The translations under genes were made by a program, and so were the position numbers. From Aureimonas mangrovi (GTDB lineage Bacteria > Pseudomonadota > Alphaproteobacteria > Rhizobiales > Rhizobiaceae), in the NCBI RefSeq assembly GCF_014058705.1, contig NZ_CP059692.1, positions 377,001 through 441,000 on the forward strand: a stretch of 64,000 nt of DNA. Reading direction: 5' to 3'. The notes under the pieces were generated by a model. That model did no database searches. It had not been told where the DNA came from and saw nothing but the letters and a program-made list of their open reading frames with translations. How positions within the stretch are numbered: the first letter of the stretch is position 1; the number at the start of each line of letters is the position of its first letter. This document shows positions 40,065-45,899 of the stretch, in pieces.

Positions 40065-41096
40065 ATGGGCTACAAGATCGCTATCGTCGGCGCGACGGGC
40101 AATGTCGGCCGGGAGATGCTTGCCATCCTCGACGAGCGCGGCTTCCCGGCCGACGAAGTCGTGGCGCTGGCATCCCGGCGCAGCCAGGGCACTGAGGTTT
40201 CCTTCGGCGACAGGACCCTGAAGGTGAAGGCGCTCGAAAGCTACGACTGGGCGGGCACCGACATCTGCCTGATGTCGGCCGGCGGCTCGGTGGCCAAGGA
40301 ATGGGCTCCCAAGATCGCTGCGCAAGGTGTCGTCGTCATCGATAACTCCTCGGCCTTCCGGTACGATCAGGACGTCCCGCTGATCGTGCCGGAGGTGAAT
40401 GCCGACGCCGTCGCAGGTTTCACGCGCCGCAACATCATCGCCAATCCGAACTGCTCCACCGCGCAGCTCGTCGTGGCGCTGAAGCCGCTGCACGAGAAGG
40501 CGAAGATCCGCCGCGTCGTGGTCTCGACCTACCAGTCCGTCTCGGGCGCCGGCAAGGACGGCATGGACGAGCTGTTCGAGCAGAGCCGCGCGGTTTTCGT
40601 CGCCGATCCGACGACGAACAAGAAGTTCACCAAGCGCATCGCCTTCAACGTCATCCCCCACATCGACGTTTTCATGGAGGACGGCTCCACCAAGGAAGAG
40701 TGGAAGGTGATGGCCGAGACGAAGAAGATGCTGGACCCGAAGATCAAGGTGACATGCACCGCCGTGCGCGTGCCGGTCTTCATCGGCCATTCCGAGGCCG
40801 TCAACATCGAGTTCGAGGAGCCGATCACGGCCGACGAGGCACGCGCCATCCTGCGCGAGGCTCCGGGCTGCCTCGTCGTCGACAAGCCCGAGGACGGCGG
40901 CTACATCACGCCGATCGAGACGGCTGGCGAGGACGCGACCTACATCTCGCGCATCCGCGAGGACCAGACGCTGGAGAACGGCCTCAACCTCTGGGTCGTG
41001 GCCGACAATCTGCGAAAGGGCGCGGCCCTCAACGCGGTCCAGATCGCCGAGCTTCTCGTCAATCGGGGCCTTTTGCGCGAGAAGCGCGCGGCCTGA
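40065..41096 (+). CDS. asd: aspartate-semialdehyde dehydrogenase
   Basis: A 343-residue NADPH-dependent enzyme making aspartate semialdehyde for lysine, methionine, threonine and diaminopimelate. The Rossmann motif GATGNVGREM is at 9-18. The active-site cysteine is C130 in NPNCSTAQLV. GAGKDGMDEL and FNVIPHIDVF follow. ATG 40065 fits the family start MGYKIAIVGATG. In many Hyphomicrobiales asd follows leuB directly; here five genes on both strands lie between. Confidence 0.96.
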   Translation: MGYKIAIVGATGNVGREMLAILDERGFPADEVVALASRRSQGTEVSFGDRTLKVKALESYDWAGTDICLMSAGGSVAKEWAPKIAAQGVVVIDNSSAFRYDQDVPLIVPEVNADAVAGFTRRNIIANPNCSTAQLVVALKPLHEKAKIRRVVVSTYQSVSGAGKDGMDELFEQSRAVFVADPTTNKKFTKRIAFNVIPHIDVFMEDGSTKEEWKVMAETKKMLDPKIKVTCTAVRVPVFIGHSEAVNIEFEEPITADEARAILREAPGCLVVDKPEDGGYITPIETAGEDATYISRIREDQTLENGLNLWVVADNLRKGAALNAVQIAELLVNRGLLREKRAA

Positions 41097-41152: not shown

Positions 41153-41349
41153 CGTCTCGCGCGACGCCGAGTGTGGTGCGGGAGGGCAACAGCGGCGGCC
41201 GCATCGACGGCTCGCCTCGATTTCGGCCGTTTCACCTTACTATGAGGCCGGACACGCGTATTCATTCGCTTTTTAATCGAATCTGAACCATGTGCGAGGA
41301 AAGTCGCCCCGTCCCTCGCCTTCAGCCCGACCAGTCCAAGGACCGTTTC

Positions 41350-42012
41350 ATGAAGAAGATCATCGTCGCCACAGCGTCGCTCGCCATCCTCGCGGGCTGC
41401 ACCACCAATCCCTATACCGGCGAGCAGCAGATTTCGCGCACCGCGGCCGGCGCGGGTATCGGTGCGGGCGCGGGCGCGCTGGGCGGCCTTCTCGTCGGTG
41501 AGCTCGCGGGTCTCGACCGCAGCGATTCCGCGCTGATCGGCGCCGGCATCGGCACGATCGCAGGTGGCGGCATCGGCGTCTACATGGACCGTCAGGAGGC
41601 CGACCTGCGCCGCCAGCTGCAGGGCACGGGCGTCTCGGTGACCCGCGTCGGCGATCGCATCATCCTGAACATGCCGTCCAACATCACCTTCGCAACCGAT
41701 CAGGACCAGGTCCGCTCGGAGTTCTACCCGACGTTGACCTCGGTCGCGATCGTCCTCAACCGCTACGACCAGTCGATCGTCGACGTCGTCGGCCACACCG
41801 ACAATGTCGGCTCGGCACAGTACAATTTCGGCCTGTCGCAGCGGCGCGCCTCCAGCGTCGCGGGCTTCCTGCAGAACCAGGGCGTCAACGGCCGTCGCCT
41901 GAACGTGCAGGGTCAGGGCCTGTCGCAGCCGATCGCGTCGAACGCCACGGAGCAGGGCCGCGCGCAGAACCGCCGGGTCGAGATTTCCATCTCGCCGCTC
42001 CAGGCCGGCTGA
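41350..42012 (+). CDS. OmpA-family lipoprotein with glycine zipper (YiaD-like)
   Basis: A 220-residue outer-membrane lipoprotein. The lipobox LAGC places the acylated cysteine near residue 17. Two glycine-zipper stretches follow (AGAGIGAGAGALGG and LIGAGIGTIAGGGIG), then an OmpA-type peptidoglycan-binding domain from about 110 (ITFATDQDQV, VVGHTDNVGS, LSQRRASSVAGFL). It should tie the outer membrane to peptidoglycan. ATG 41350 starts the signal peptide KKIIVATASLAILAG. The 197 bases upstream of it hold no recognised feature. Confidence 0.9.
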   Translation: MKKIIVATASLAILAGCTTNPYTGEQQISRTAAGAGIGAGAGALGGLLVGELAGLDRSDSALIGAGIGTIAGGGIGVYMDRQEADLRRQLQGTGVSVTRVGDRIILNMPSNITFATDQDQVRSEFYPTLTSVAIVLNRYDQSIVDVVGHTDNVGSAQYNFGLSQRRASSVAGFLQNQGVNGRRLNVQGQGLSQPIASNATEQGRAQNRRVEISISPLQAG

Positions 42013-42043: not shown

Positions 42044-42078
42044 AATGCCGCCCCGACAGGCACGGGGCGGCATTTTTC
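42044..42078 (+). terminator. rho-independent terminator of the OmpA-like gene
   Basis: AATGCCGCCCCG pairs with CGGGGCGGCATT over a seven-base loop, and the T-rich tail TTTTT overlaps the right end. It is a strong stem. Confidence 0.88.
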
Positions 42079-42289: not shown

Positions 42290-43810
42290 TCAGTCCGCCT
42301 CGGCCATCAGGTCCTCGAAGTCGGCGCCGAGCCGCGCCAGCGAGGCGTCGATATGCTCGCGCCGCTCGCGCACCCAGGCATCCTGCCGGTCGAGCGCTCC
42401 GCGCGCGGCCTCCAGCATCCGCGTCATCTCGGCCGGCTGCGGGCCGCCGGCCGAAGCGCGGTTGGCGATGATCACCTGCGGATCGAGCGCGTTGCGGAAC
42501 TCTTCCTCGCTCATCGGCAGCTCGTCCGAGGGCAGGTCCATGTCGCCGAGGGACTCGGCGTAGATGCGCTGGGCCTCGGCGTAAGGGAACTCGCTCGGGC
42601 GGATGTTCTCGGCCTTGGCGAAGTCCACGATTTCCGACGCGAAATGATGGCCGGCGCGGAAGGGCAGGCCGTGCTCGCGCATCAGGATGTCGGCGACCTC
42701 CTGCGAGGCTGTCCAGTCGCTGTCGAGTTCCTCCAGCGCGCGCTCGGGATCGATCGCGAGCGCGCCCGCGATCTCGTTCCACGCCTGAAGGACCTCGACG
42801 GCGTTGTCGATCACCTCGTTGTTGGCCGAGACGTCCTTGGCGTCGTTCTGGCCGGGGGTGATGTTATGCGCCCGCAGGACCGGGCCGAAGGCGGTGGCGA
42901 TCGCCGTCGAGGCGGCGCCGCGCGCATCGTTCAGGATGCCCGGGTTGCGCTTCTGCGGCATGGCGCTCGAAACGTAGGTGTTGCCGCCGCCCTCCTGCAG
43001 AAGGATCCACGGGCGCGGCTGGGCGTACTGCACCATCACGTCCTCGACGAAATGGCCGGCGTGCAGAGCGATGCTCGTAACCAGCGCGCCGACCTCGACG
43101 GGATGCTCCGTGGAGGAAATCTGCGAGGCGTCATAGGCATTGTCGACGGTGGAGGCGAAGCCGAGATAGTCGGCCATGCGCTCGCGGTTCAGAGGCCAGC
43201 TCGTGCCGTTGAGGACAGTGGTTCCCATCGCCGAGCGGTCGATGCGGGCATAGGCCTCGCGGATGCGCTGCGCGTCGCGCTCGAGCCCTGCGACATGGCC
43301 GAGAAGGTAATGGCCGTAGCTGTTGGGCTGTGCCGCGACGCCGTTGGTGTAGTTCGGGACGATCGTGCCCTGGTGCTGGTCGGCAAGCTCCACCAGCGTG
43401 CGCGTCGTGGTGTTGAGTTCTTCCGCCAGCTCCAGAAGCCTGTCACGCAGGATCGCGGCCCGATAGGTCGCGTGCATGTCCTGGCTGGAGCGGCCGGCAT
43501 GCAGCAGCGTCACCTCGACGCCCGCCGCCTCGATCATCAGCGGTTCGAAGCTGATGACGGTGGAGGGGCGCTTCGCGCCCTCGGCCGCGCCGTTCTCCAG
43601 CACCGTGCGGATGCCTTGCGCGATGCGCGGGGTCAGCGCCGGGTCGAGCAGACCTTCCTGCGAGTTGATGACGGCGCTCGCCTTGTTGATCTCGCCGAGC
43701 CAGAAGAACTGGTCGCGCATTGGACCCTCGGCCTCCTGGGCGCTCGCGCCCGCACAGGACGCAGTCAGGATGATCGCCGCCGCTGCGGCGCGCAGATTGA
43801 TGCTGGACAT
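42290..43810 (-). CDS. exported argininosuccinate-lyase-like protein in a TTT transporter operon
   Basis: A 506-residue member of the fumarase/aspartase superfamily, closest in motifs to ArgH and its paralogues (including EDDS-lyase-like enzymes). An N-terminal Sec signal (INLRAAAAAIILTASCAGAS) is cleaved near residue 24, so the protein should be periplasmic, unlike ArgH. The superfamily signature SSAMPQKRNP is at 281-290, including the mobile-loop serines. HAGRSSQDM at 104-112 replaces the ArgH GRSRNDQ region. The motif YTHxQxAQP reads YTNGVAAQP, with Asn156 in place of the conserved histidine. It follows tctB and tctA on the same strand, 89 bases after tctA. It could release fumarate from an N-succinyl compound, or, if inactive, bind a ligand. 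Confidence 0.82.
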   Translation of the reverse strand: MSSINLRAAAAAIILTASCAGASAQEAEGPMRDQFFWLGEINKASAVINSQEGLLDPALTPRIAQGIRTVLENGAAEGAKRPSTVISFEPLMIEAAGVEVTLLHAGRSSQDMHATYRAAILRDRLLELAEELNTTTRTLVELADQHQGTIVPNYTNGVAAQPNSYGHYLLGHVAGLERDAQRIREAYARIDRSAMGTTVLNGTSWPLNRERMADYLGFASTVDNAYDASQISSTEHPVEVGALVTSIALHAGHFVEDVMVQYAQPRPWILLQEGGGNTYVSSAMPQKRNPGILNDARGAASTAIATAFGPVLRAHNITPGQNDAKDVSANNEVIDNAVEVLQAWNEIAGALAIDPERALEELDSDWTASQEVADILMREHGLPFRAGHHFASEIVDFAKAENIRPSEFPYAEAQRIYAESLGDMDLPSDELPMSEEEFRNALDPQVIIANRASAGGPQPAEMTRMLEAARGALDRQDAWVRERREHIDASLARLGADFEDLMAEAD

Positions 43811-43825
43811 GGCTTTCCTCCCTCG

Positions 43826-43846
43826 TCCGGGCCCTCCCGGCCCGGA
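43826..43846 (-). other. stem-loop before the exported lyase gene
   Basis: TCCGGGCC and GGCCCGGA form an 8-bp stem with a five-base loop between tctA and the lyase gene, ending a few bases upstream of the lyase ribosome binding site (AGGGAGGAAAG). It may protect or partition the message. Confidence 0.4.
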
Positions 43847-43899
43847 TCACCCGTATGGCGCGGCATGCGCGGCGGAAAAACGCTGGCAGCCAATGGCGG

Positions 43900-45450
43900 C
43901 TATTCGCGGGCAGAAGCAGCCATGCGCTGCGCCGCTCGCTCCCCGCGGCGTGCCTGCCAGCCACGATAGGCGCCGACCGCGCTCCACACGAGGAGAAGAC
44001 CGGTCATCGCCATCACCGTGCCGGAAATCGGGCGATCGATGAAGGTCATCAGGTCGCCGCGCGAGATCAGCATGGCGCGCCGGAAATGCTCCTCCATCAG
44101 CGGCCCGAGCACGAAGCCGAGAAGCAGCGGTGCGGGCTGGAAGCCGAGGAGGCGCATCAGGTAGCCGAGCGCGCCGAAGAAGGCGACGAGCCAGACATCG
44201 AAGGCGTTGTTGTTGACCGTGAAGACGCCGATGCAGATGAACATCAGCACCGCCGGATAGAGCAGGTGATAGGGGATCAGCAGGAGGCGGACCCACAGGC
44301 CGATCAGCGGTACGTTGAGCAGGACGAGCAGGACGTTGCCGATCCAGAAGCTCATCACGAGGCCCCAGAACAGGCTCGGCTGAGTCGTCATGAGCTGCGG
44401 GCCGGGCGTGATGCCGTGGATGATCAGCGCGCCGAGCATCAGCGCCATCGTCGGGCTGCCGGGGATGCCGAGCGTCATCGTGGGGATGAAGGATGTCTGA
44501 TCGGCAGCGTTGTTAGCCGATTCCGGTGCCATGATGCCTTCGATGGCGCCCTTGCCGAAGCGCGACTTGTCGCGCGCCACGCGCTTTTCCATTGCGTAGG
44601 CCATGAAGGCGGCGACGGAGGGCCCGGTGCCGGGCAGGGTGCCGAAGAACGAGCCGATGCTCGCGCCGCGCGCCATCGGCATGACCGAGCGGCGCATATC
44701 GTCCCTCGTCGGCTTCATGGACCGCAGCGACACGCTCTTGCGGTCCACATGGCCGGCGTGGACATGACGAATGGAGGCGATGATCTCGGCGATGCCGAAA
44801 AGGCCCATCGCGAGCGCGACGAGGCTGATGCCGTCCGAAAGCTGCAGCATGCCGAAGGTGAAGCGCTGCGAGCCGGTGTACAGGTCCATGCCGACCGTGC
44901 CGAACGCGATGCCGAGGACGACCATCGCCAGTCCCTTGATCGCCGAACCGTCGGCGATAGTGGACGCCGCGACGAGACCGAGCAGCATCAGCGCGAAATA
45001 TTCCGCCGAGCCGAAGGAGAGCGCGTAGGTCGCGATCACCGGCGCGAAGAGCATCATCAGGAGGATGCCGATCGAGCCGCCGATGAAGGAGGCGATCGTG
45101 GTCATCAGGAGCGCGACGCCGCCGCGTCCCTGCCGGCTCATCGGGTAGCCGTCCAGCGAGGTGACGGCGGTGGAGGGCGTGCCGGGAATGTTGAGGAGGA
45201 TCGCTGCGGTCGATCCGCCATAGGTCGAGCCGTACCAGATGCCGGCGAGCATGATCAGCGCCGAGGTCGGGTCGAGATGGAAGGTGATCGGGAACAGCAT
45301 CGAGATCGCCGCGAGCGCGCCGATGCCGGGGATGACGCCGATGACGGTGCCCAGAAGGACGCCGATGAAGCAGTAGAAGAGATTGGACGCCGAAAGCGCG
45401 GTGTCGAAGCCGAGTGCGACGTTGCCCGCCAGATTGCCGAAGATTTCCAT
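43900..45450 (-). CDS. tctA: tripartite tricarboxylate transporter, large permease TctA
   Basis: A 516-residue inner-membrane permease with about 12 helices. Family signatures are VLLGTVIGVIPGIGALAAIS near 33, IWYGSTYGGSTAAILLNIPG near 71, and the second-half repeat GTLPGTGPSVAAFMAYAMEK, then MTLGIPGSPTMALMLGAL. TctA-type permeases take up citrate, other tri- or dicarboxylates or aromatics with a TctC binding protein. Its ATG 45450 overlaps the tctB stop by one base. No tctC is present next to it. Confidence 0.93.
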   Translation of the reverse strand: MEIFGNLAGNVALGFDTALSASNLFYCFIGVLLGTVIGVIPGIGALAAISMLFPITFHLDPTSALIMLAGIWYGSTYGGSTAAILLNIPGTPSTAVTSLDGYPMSRQGRGGVALLMTTIASFIGGSIGILLMMLFAPVIATYALSFGSAEYFALMLLGLVAASTIADGSAIKGLAMVVLGIAFGTVGMDLYTGSQRFTFGMLQLSDGISLVALAMGLFGIAEIIASIRHVHAGHVDRKSVSLRSMKPTRDDMRRSVMPMARGASIGSFFGTLPGTGPSVAAFMAYAMEKRVARDKSRFGKGAIEGIMAPESANNAADQTSFIPTMTLGIPGSPTMALMLGALIIHGITPGPQLMTTQPSLFWGLVMSFWIGNVLLVLLNVPLIGLWVRLLLIPYHLLYPAVLMFICIGVFTVNNNAFDVWLVAFFGALGYLMRLLGFQPAPLLLGFVLGPLMEEHFRRAMLISRGDLMTFIDRPISGTVMAMTGLLLVWSAVGAYRGWQARRGERAAQRMAASARE

Positions 45451-45899
45451 CAGAAGGGCCACCGGGCCATGGCAAGCGGCAGGCCGAGCCCGACGCGGAA
45501 GATGAGATAGGCCGCGAGCGGCAGCGTCACGCACATGACGAGCAGCGAGACGGGGCGGAACCGGCGCTCGGCCAGCGAGGAGACGACGAGGAGCAAGATG
45601 ATGGCCGGGACAAGACCGAGGGGGCGGATGGCCAGTGCGAAGGCACCGACGCCGGCAAGAACGGCGATCGCCGCCCGCCATTCGATTGCCTCGAAGTCGC
45701 CGGCGCGGAAGAAGGCGGGGATCATCAGCGCTATGCCGAAGACGGCGAGGATCACGCCGATCGACATCGGGAACATGCCCGGACCCATACGTCGCACGGT
45801 GCCGAAGTCGAGCGTCGCGCTCGCATACCAGGCGATCAGGATACCCGTCAGGAGAAGCAGTGCCCCTCCCGCAATGTTGCGATAGTCGCGCTGATACAT
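45450..45899 (-). CDS. tctB: tripartite tricarboxylate transporter, small permease TctB
   Basis: A 149-residue membrane protein with four helices (NIAGGALLLLTGILIAWYAS, MFPMSIGVILAVFGIALMIP, AAIAVLAGVGAFALAIRPLG and a last pair). The pattern MGPGMFPMSIGVIL is typical of the family. ATG 45899 follows GGGAGGAGA. It opens the tctB-tctA-lyase operon. Confidence 0.9.
   Translation of the reverse strand: MYQRDYRNIAGGALLLLTGILIAWYASATLDFGTVRRMGPGMFPMSIGVILAVFGIALMIPAFFRAGDFEAIEWRAAIAVLAGVGAFALAIRPLGLVPAIILLLVVSSLAERRFRPVSLLVMCVTLPLAAYLIFRVGLGLPLAMARWPF

Follow-up and report, generated by a model that had tools for sequence, protein, structure and literature searches.

A lyase with an export signal behind a TctBA transporter operon without tctC in Aureimonas mangrovi: a possible periplasmic source of fumarate

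We analysed a 64-kb stretch of the Aureimonas mangrovi genome (NZ_CP059692.1, positions 377,001 to 441,000), hereafter the window, whose numbering is used below unless genome positions are named. The genome itself is a single contig of 3.49 Mb. Our subject is a group of three genes in the window, encoding the two membrane subunits of a tripartite tricarboxylate transporter (TTT) and a lyase of the argininosuccinate lyase/fumarase superfamily that carries a signal peptide. The reading to which the analysis leads, and which we regard as only just probable, is that the lyase is a competent exported enzyme that frees fumarate from a succinyl-X compound, with uptake likely by TctBA together with a BugD-like TctC. 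The features on which the argument depends are the following.

45450..45899, minus strand: tctB, small membrane subunit of the TTT, 149 aa (Pfam TctB, 3.5e-19)
43900..45450, minus strand: tctA, large membrane subunit of the TTT, 516 aa (Pfam TctA, 5e-162)
42290..43810, minus strand: exported lyase, argininosuccinate lyase/fumarase superfamily, 506 aa (Pfam Lyase_1, 3.8e-27; ASL_C2, 4.2e-10)
43739..43810, minus strand: Sec-type signal peptide of the lyase, cleavage expected after residue 24, between ASA and Q (by eye; relatives alike)
43343..43345, minus strand: codon of Asn156 of the lyase (His in ArgH, Gln159 in EDDS lyase; all 89 family rows have N)
42941..42970, minus strand: catalytic loop SSAMPQKRNP, lyase residues 281-290 (alignment, 89 rows)
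43826..43846, minus strand: G+C-rich hairpin in the 89-bp gap between tctA and the lyase gene, with no T run (from the sequence)

Open reading frames (ORFs) and Pfam confirm the tctB-tctA-lyase array that an earlier, sequence-only reading had placed here on the minus strand, and the presence of both the TctA and the TctB subunit assigns the transporter to the TTT family. One base is shared by tctB and tctA, 89 bp separate tctA from the lyase gene, and all three genes are read from the minus strand. No terminator was called between tctA and the lyase gene, either by a consensus scan or by folding the 89-bp gap, which folds no better than its shuffles (z = 0.42), and the co-directional layout suggests that tctBA and the lyase gene may be co-transcribed. 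The usual gene of the binding protein TctC is missing, as the same reading had said: none was found adjoining the operon or anywhere in the window. The whole genome gives eight TctC matches and six TctA matches, one of the latter weak; the cell thus has TctCs, though the operon has none.

The clear Sec signal that had been claimed for the lyase stands, both on its N-terminus and on that of its relatives. Namely, the protein begins with MSSINLRAAAAAIILTASCAGASA, followed by Q at the expected cleavage site, which by eye is a plain Sec-type signal without twin arginine. In 66 of 80 relatives the signal could be scored by script, the other 14 being left unscored since their RDxFFW motif varies. 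An AxA-type site precedes the conserved RDxFFW start in all 66 scored sequences, 65 of them reach 1.6 or more at their hydrophobic peak and three have a twin arginine, while the 14 with motif variants look signal-like by eye; it is on this conserved N-terminal signal (66 of 66 scored, of 80) that we class the family as exported. As a rule, enzymes of the superfamily are known from the cytoplasm. In two of the 80 loci, a tandem second lyase copy lies directly behind the exported one (L117:3471-4925 and L126:9542-10951), with the same active-site motifs and without the signal peptide, an arrangement more easily understood for an enzyme than for a receptor in transport. Three proteins named argininosuccinate lyase, which may belong to the present family, are described in the periplasmic fraction of A. 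xylosoxidans as predicted Tat substrates (PMC11533796, in excerpt); this agrees with export and disagrees with the mostly Sec-like signals seen here.

The family was collected by scanning genome contigs with an alignment of nine genus-level sequences, which gave 218 loci, and the best 80 of these, kept for analysis, are 64-72% identical to the A. mangrovi lyase. The resulting alignment has 89 rows, 85 of them distinct, three Aureimonas loci and one Xenophilus pair occurring twice. Asn156, in the context NYTNGVAAQP, is invariant throughout (89 of 89 rows, 85 distinct), and so are S281, S282, M284, P285, Q286, K287, N289 and P290 of the catalytic loop, eight residues that EDDS lyase and E. coli ArgH have in common with the family. 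In all, 34 invariant family positions are common to these two enzymes, and among the 213 columns conserved to at least 95%, the A. mangrovi lyase differs at three. The Lyase_1 domain, the GSSxMPxKxN-type loop and the fold match together place the protein in the fumarase/aspartase/ArgH superfamily. In particular, a structural model with a predicted local distance difference test (pLDDT) score of 89.8 (an earlier one from nine sequences, at 60.9, was set aside) has as its top fold match the EDDS lyase of Chelativorans sp. BNC1 (PDB 6g3d; E = 1.7e-25, template modelling (TM) score 0.86), which is the closest PDB sequence as well, and which shares the catalytic loop and a residue other than histidine at the ArgH histidine position. 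The sequence match to EDDS lyase begins only after the signal of the A. mangrovi protein, and identity in the structural alignment is 24%. With ArgH, the lyase has in common the superfamily, the SSxMPQKxNP loop and the ASL_C2 domain, and it differs from it in falling below the argH cut-off, in bearing a signal and in its GRSSQD and YTN motifs.

The sequence-only reading had noted Asn156 at the position of the ArgH histidine and an intact SSAMPQKRNP loop, and both are found in the sequence as described; its suggestion that Asn156 marks an inactivated enzyme did not hold up. EDDS lyase acts on N-substituted aspartates and has Gln159 close to its substrate; activity with a non-native amine is described for two variants at this residue, Q159C and Q159M (PMC12363623, in excerpt). 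Asn156 is no ground for inactivation because EDDS lyase has glutamine there and is active with cysteine or methionine in that place; we reject inactivation by Asn156 on the invariance of the residue in all rows, the kept loop and the active enzyme with Gln159. In other words, the conserved active-site residues suggest that the lyase is catalytically competent. What it acts on is a different matter. The six substrate-near residues of EDDS lyase, R112, N113, Q159, N288, D290 and Y320, correspond to S109, Q110, N156, N289, G291 and N322, so that only one of the six is kept and the exported family, in which R112, N113 and D290 are replaced, stands apart from EDDS lyase proper. Since S109, Q110 and G291 are unlike EDDS lyase and yet invariant in the family, the leaving group is probably a different one.

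The lyase clade is exported and widespread, if patchy. Its hosts are mostly Alpha- and Betaproteobacteria, among them Achromobacter, Bordetella, Cupriavidus, Bosea, Paracoccus and Phyllobacterium, and it is present in nine of 21 genomes of the genus Aureimonas. In an even draw of 385 class genomes, scanned at E = 1e-120 with at most three candidates scored per genome, the sole match was the genome of A. mangrovi itself. Fourteen plasmid records have a match, annotated as argininosuccinate lyase in six, as lyase family protein in four and not at all in four. A literature search gave no description of an exported lyase family of this kind among the matches listed, and, among those listed for iminodisuccinate lyase, nothing on its gene. 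The family is a real and little known exported variant of a known superfamily.

We propose that the lyase, once exported to the periplasm, would cut a succinyl-X compound by elimination into fumarate and a leaving group X. The substrate would probably be an N-substituted aspartate, with C-O or C-S analogues possible, and the released fumarate would be taken up by a C4-dicarboxylate carrier. In A. mangrovi, the likely carrier would be the co-directional TctBA, aided by a BugD-like TctC whose gene lies at another place in the genome, for which there are two orphan candidates. We infer the activity, the fumarate product, the substrate, the use of this TctAB and the choice of TctC. One "argininosuccinate lyase" of Advenella, which may belong to the exported family, is 6.4-fold up on mercaptosuccinate versus succinate (PMC5373536, in excerpt).

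The release of fumarate gains support from the carriers that lie beside other members of the family, since the lyase pairs with DctA in two lineages and has TRAP DctM nearby (TRAP: tripartite ATP-independent periplasmic transporter). DctA carries fumarate, succinate and malate, needs no binding protein and is of a carrier family unrelated to TctAB. The flanks of the 80 loci, 60 of which are at least 17 kb long, were scanned by tblastn and gave matches to TctA in one, TctC in 27, DctA in seven and DctM in nine. In three of the 80 (L062, L064 and L075), dctA lies directly upstream of the exported lyase gene and co-directional with it, 48-87 bp from the lyase start that yields the signal, and the products of all three score above the NCBIfam DctA cut-offs. 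By the tree, L062 and L064 form one clade (dctA 95% identical) and L075 belongs to another (dctA 58-59%). Of the nine loci with TRAP dctM in their flanks, five make up a single Bosea clade, in which a further gene comes between dctM and the lyase gene, and L108 has dctM as the next gene upstream of the lyase gene; TRAP dctM also occurs in the flanks of one of eight sister loci (G003). Pfam domains were counted in the 120 proteins nearest to the lyase and in 121 from 5-8 kb away, both sets coming from simple ORF calls of 140-650 aa that cover only some genes of the 80 loci: SDF, the DctA family, is found in three of the 120 near proteins and is not one of the 25 families listed among the far proteins, hence in at most two of those, and CMAS is found in five of 120. 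That the patchy exported lyases in general make periplasmic fumarate and have been paired separately with unrelated C4-dicarboxylate carriers (TTT here, DctA twice, TRAP) is a wider claim, to which we attach a likelihood somewhat short of even. The TctC matches near 27 of the 80 lyases are given no weight, since some Betaproteobacteria have Bug genes in large numbers (PMC5812351, in excerpt).

A few neighbours are recorded for their own sake. In the Bosea clade (L080, L089, L090, L096 and L100), the gene between the TRAP genes and the lyase is, by eye, cyclopropane fatty acid synthase-like. A membrane dipeptidase lies near the lyase in two genera (L053:6817-7869 by Pfam M19; L034:10225-11364 by its opening motif, by eye only), and tartrate dehydrogenase genes (TIGR02089) lie near it in L034 and L099.

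What would TctBA itself carry? Orthologues of TctA outside the genus were sought in 297 family genomes, and flanks were fetched for ten. The four closest (70-76% by tblastn) belong to complete tctCBA operons with a BugD-type TctC, in which tctC is preceded by a sensor kinase and a sigma-54-type regulator, a DctB/DctD-like pair; TctA and TctB of A. mangrovi are orthologous to theirs, the difference being that its operon, like that of five sister genomes, is without tctC. The sensor of one of the four (L166) matches DctB crystal structures with E values of 1e-35 to 5e-34. A. mangrovi has two orphan TctC genes, at genome positions 2401826-2402794 and 3385216-3386148, both in a BugD-like clade, and the best match of the first is BugD (E = 2.4e-91), which was crystallised with aspartate (PMC5812351, in excerpt). 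Taken together, the DctB-like sensors and the BugD match point to C4-dicarboxylates or aspartate as the putative cargo.

Both orphans are the best matches, among the eight TctCs of A. mangrovi, to the TctCs of the four closest operons, at 57-63% for orphan 2401826 and 53-55% for orphan 3385216. What is more, a close orthologue of orphan 2401826 (77-80%) is found in four of the six other genus genomes that have this TctBA and in none of the 14 without it; with A. mangrovi included, all five close orthologues occur in genomes with this TctBA, for which P = 0.001 on the assumption, untrue here, of independent genomes. On this comparative evidence an orphan TctC is a candidate partner of this TctBA. 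A firm assignment was dropped, since 17 of the 24 rows of the TctC tree fall into a single supported clade, without resolved order inside it, which unites both orphans with the TctCs from the four closest operons and with those beside another TctA type. The second BugD-like orphan adjoins a gene of the isocitrate/isopropylmalate dehydrogenase family (L047:5163-7308, Pfam Iso_dh). A. mangrovi also has a second tctBA, at 717 kb (L176:3428-5558), around which the 11 kb fetched contain no TctC match; it has lost or lacks a neighbouring TctC.

The alternative that survives best is that the exported lyase is active and its position behind tctBA accidental, the enzyme serving other carriers or a non-nutritional role such as detoxification or metallophore turnover. 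We hold this to be a serious possibility, if on balance an improbable one. The following observations count against the proposed link of lyase, fumarate and TctBA, and several of them are what accident would lead one to expect. No constant partner gene of the lyase was found among the 80 loci and in six of the 14 plasmid records. The sole TctA in the 80 flanks is convergent, so that linkage of TTT and lyase is seen only in A. mangrovi. The co-occurrence of lyase and TctBA in the genus is weak (five genomes shared of nine and seven, in 21 genomes; P = 0.08, uncorrected for descent), and the lyases of G002, G006, G009 and G015 occur without this TctBA. In the tree, the A. mangrovi lyase sits on a long branch (0.42 versus a median of 0.053), apart from the other Aureimonas lyases; given the long branch, its independent gain in A. 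mangrovi is likely and not proven. The differences S109/R112, Q110/N113 and G291/D290 leave the substrate unfixed. As for the transporter, no DctB-like match was found in the fetched stretches of the six more distant TctA relatives (60-69%), whose adjacent or nearby TctCs are of other types, 29-38% identical to the best A. mangrovi TctC. Some match of the BugD-like TctC type at E = 1e-95 is found in 20 of 21 genus genomes, which speaks against a firm orphan assignment, and a BugD-like TctC lies beside the other TctA type in all seven genus loci fetched, with a tctA 88-94% identical to the one at 717 kb. Because the BugD-like clade includes TctCs beside that TctA type, the orphans could belong to the 717-kb transporter instead, and the case for accident is strengthened by this loosening of the orphan assignment by the TctC tree. 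Against accident stand the direct pairing with DctA, repeated in two lineages, the C4-dicarboxylate character of the closest TctCBA relatives, and the co-directional placement of the lyase gene with no terminator seen after tctA. The earlier suggestion, in which fumarate or some other acid is set free outside the cytoplasm by the lyase and imported by TctAB, is supported by the genomic context (DctA, TRAP and the DctB-like sensors), the TctAB linkage being found only here.

The sister loci bear both on accident and on a second alternative, and three further features of the window serve to compare them.

42045..42073, strand not given: strong hairpin where the lyase gene and the OmpA-like gene end towards each other, a likely terminator (z = -3.20, fold -22.7 kcal/mol)
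41290..42012, plus strand: OmpA-like gene (named by eye), synteny marker; an 88% identical gene lies directly after tctA in G003
40065..41096, plus strand: asd (named by eye), synteny marker; 94% identical in G003, in the same relative place

The hairpin at 42045-42073 has its T run on the plus strand and is absent from the terminator consensus scan. A tctA orthologue (74-85%) is present in six of the 20 other genus genomes, in two with one TGA inside the matched stretch, and the gene before it is 61-70% identical to tctB in five of the six and 41% in the other. In five genomes (G003, G005, G007, G011 and G013), tctBA has neither tctC nor a lyase gene adjoining in the 11.7-16 kb fetched, and in the remaining one (G014) a TctC of another type adjoins. 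G003, the closest by asd (94%), has this locus in the order tctB-tctA-OmpA-like-asd, with no lyase gene (L163), which suits an accidental position, and a strong hairpin follows tctA there. Among the loci compared, a lyase gene behind tctA is found only in A. mangrovi. Five sister tctBA loci without tctC or lyase make tctBA without tctC the rule of the group, irrespective of the lyase.

It had also been proposed that the lyase, inactivated, has become the ligand-binding component of TctAB, an idea invited by an exported protein in an operon with no adjacent tctC. We find it very improbable: the active-site residues are invariant, EDDS lyase is active with Gln, Cys or Met at the Asn156 position (PMC12363623, in excerpt), two orphan TctCs of fitting type are encoded in the genome, and the TctC domain PF03401 was not found in the lyase, where Lyase_1 and ASL_C2 are the only domains at E = 0.001. 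Five sister tctBA lack both tctC and an adjacent lyase, one of these genomes, G007, has no lyase of the exported family in its genome, and the lyase lies directly behind DctA, and once behind TRAP DctM; a TctC substitute is unlikely because beside DctA it would make no sense. On the sister loci without lyase and the lyases beside DctA, we reject a replacement of TctC.

Finally, that the protein is simply the argininosuccinate lyase of arginine synthesis, its start misread, as the annotation of six plasmid records and a match to TIGR00838 (NCBIfam argH equivalog) might suggest, is the least credible proposal of all, given that the match scores 189.1 bits against a cut-off of 279.5, that signals are conserved across the family, that YTN and GRSSQD replace the histidine motif YTHxQxAQP and GRSRND in 89 of 89 rows, and that the genome contains, at other positions, two ArgH-like places whose motifs are FTH and RSRND.

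If the release of fumarate by the exported lyase is as we propose, it would constitute an outside-first catabolic step, acting on a substrate that needs no importer of its own. Alpha- and Betaproteobacteria could then use N-substituted aspartates, such as chelants and metallophore-like compounds, without a dedicated importer. The annotations of an exported clade that public records often label argininosuccinate lyase would be corrected, and there would be a testable partnership between an enzyme that is exported and carriers of C4-dicarboxylates.

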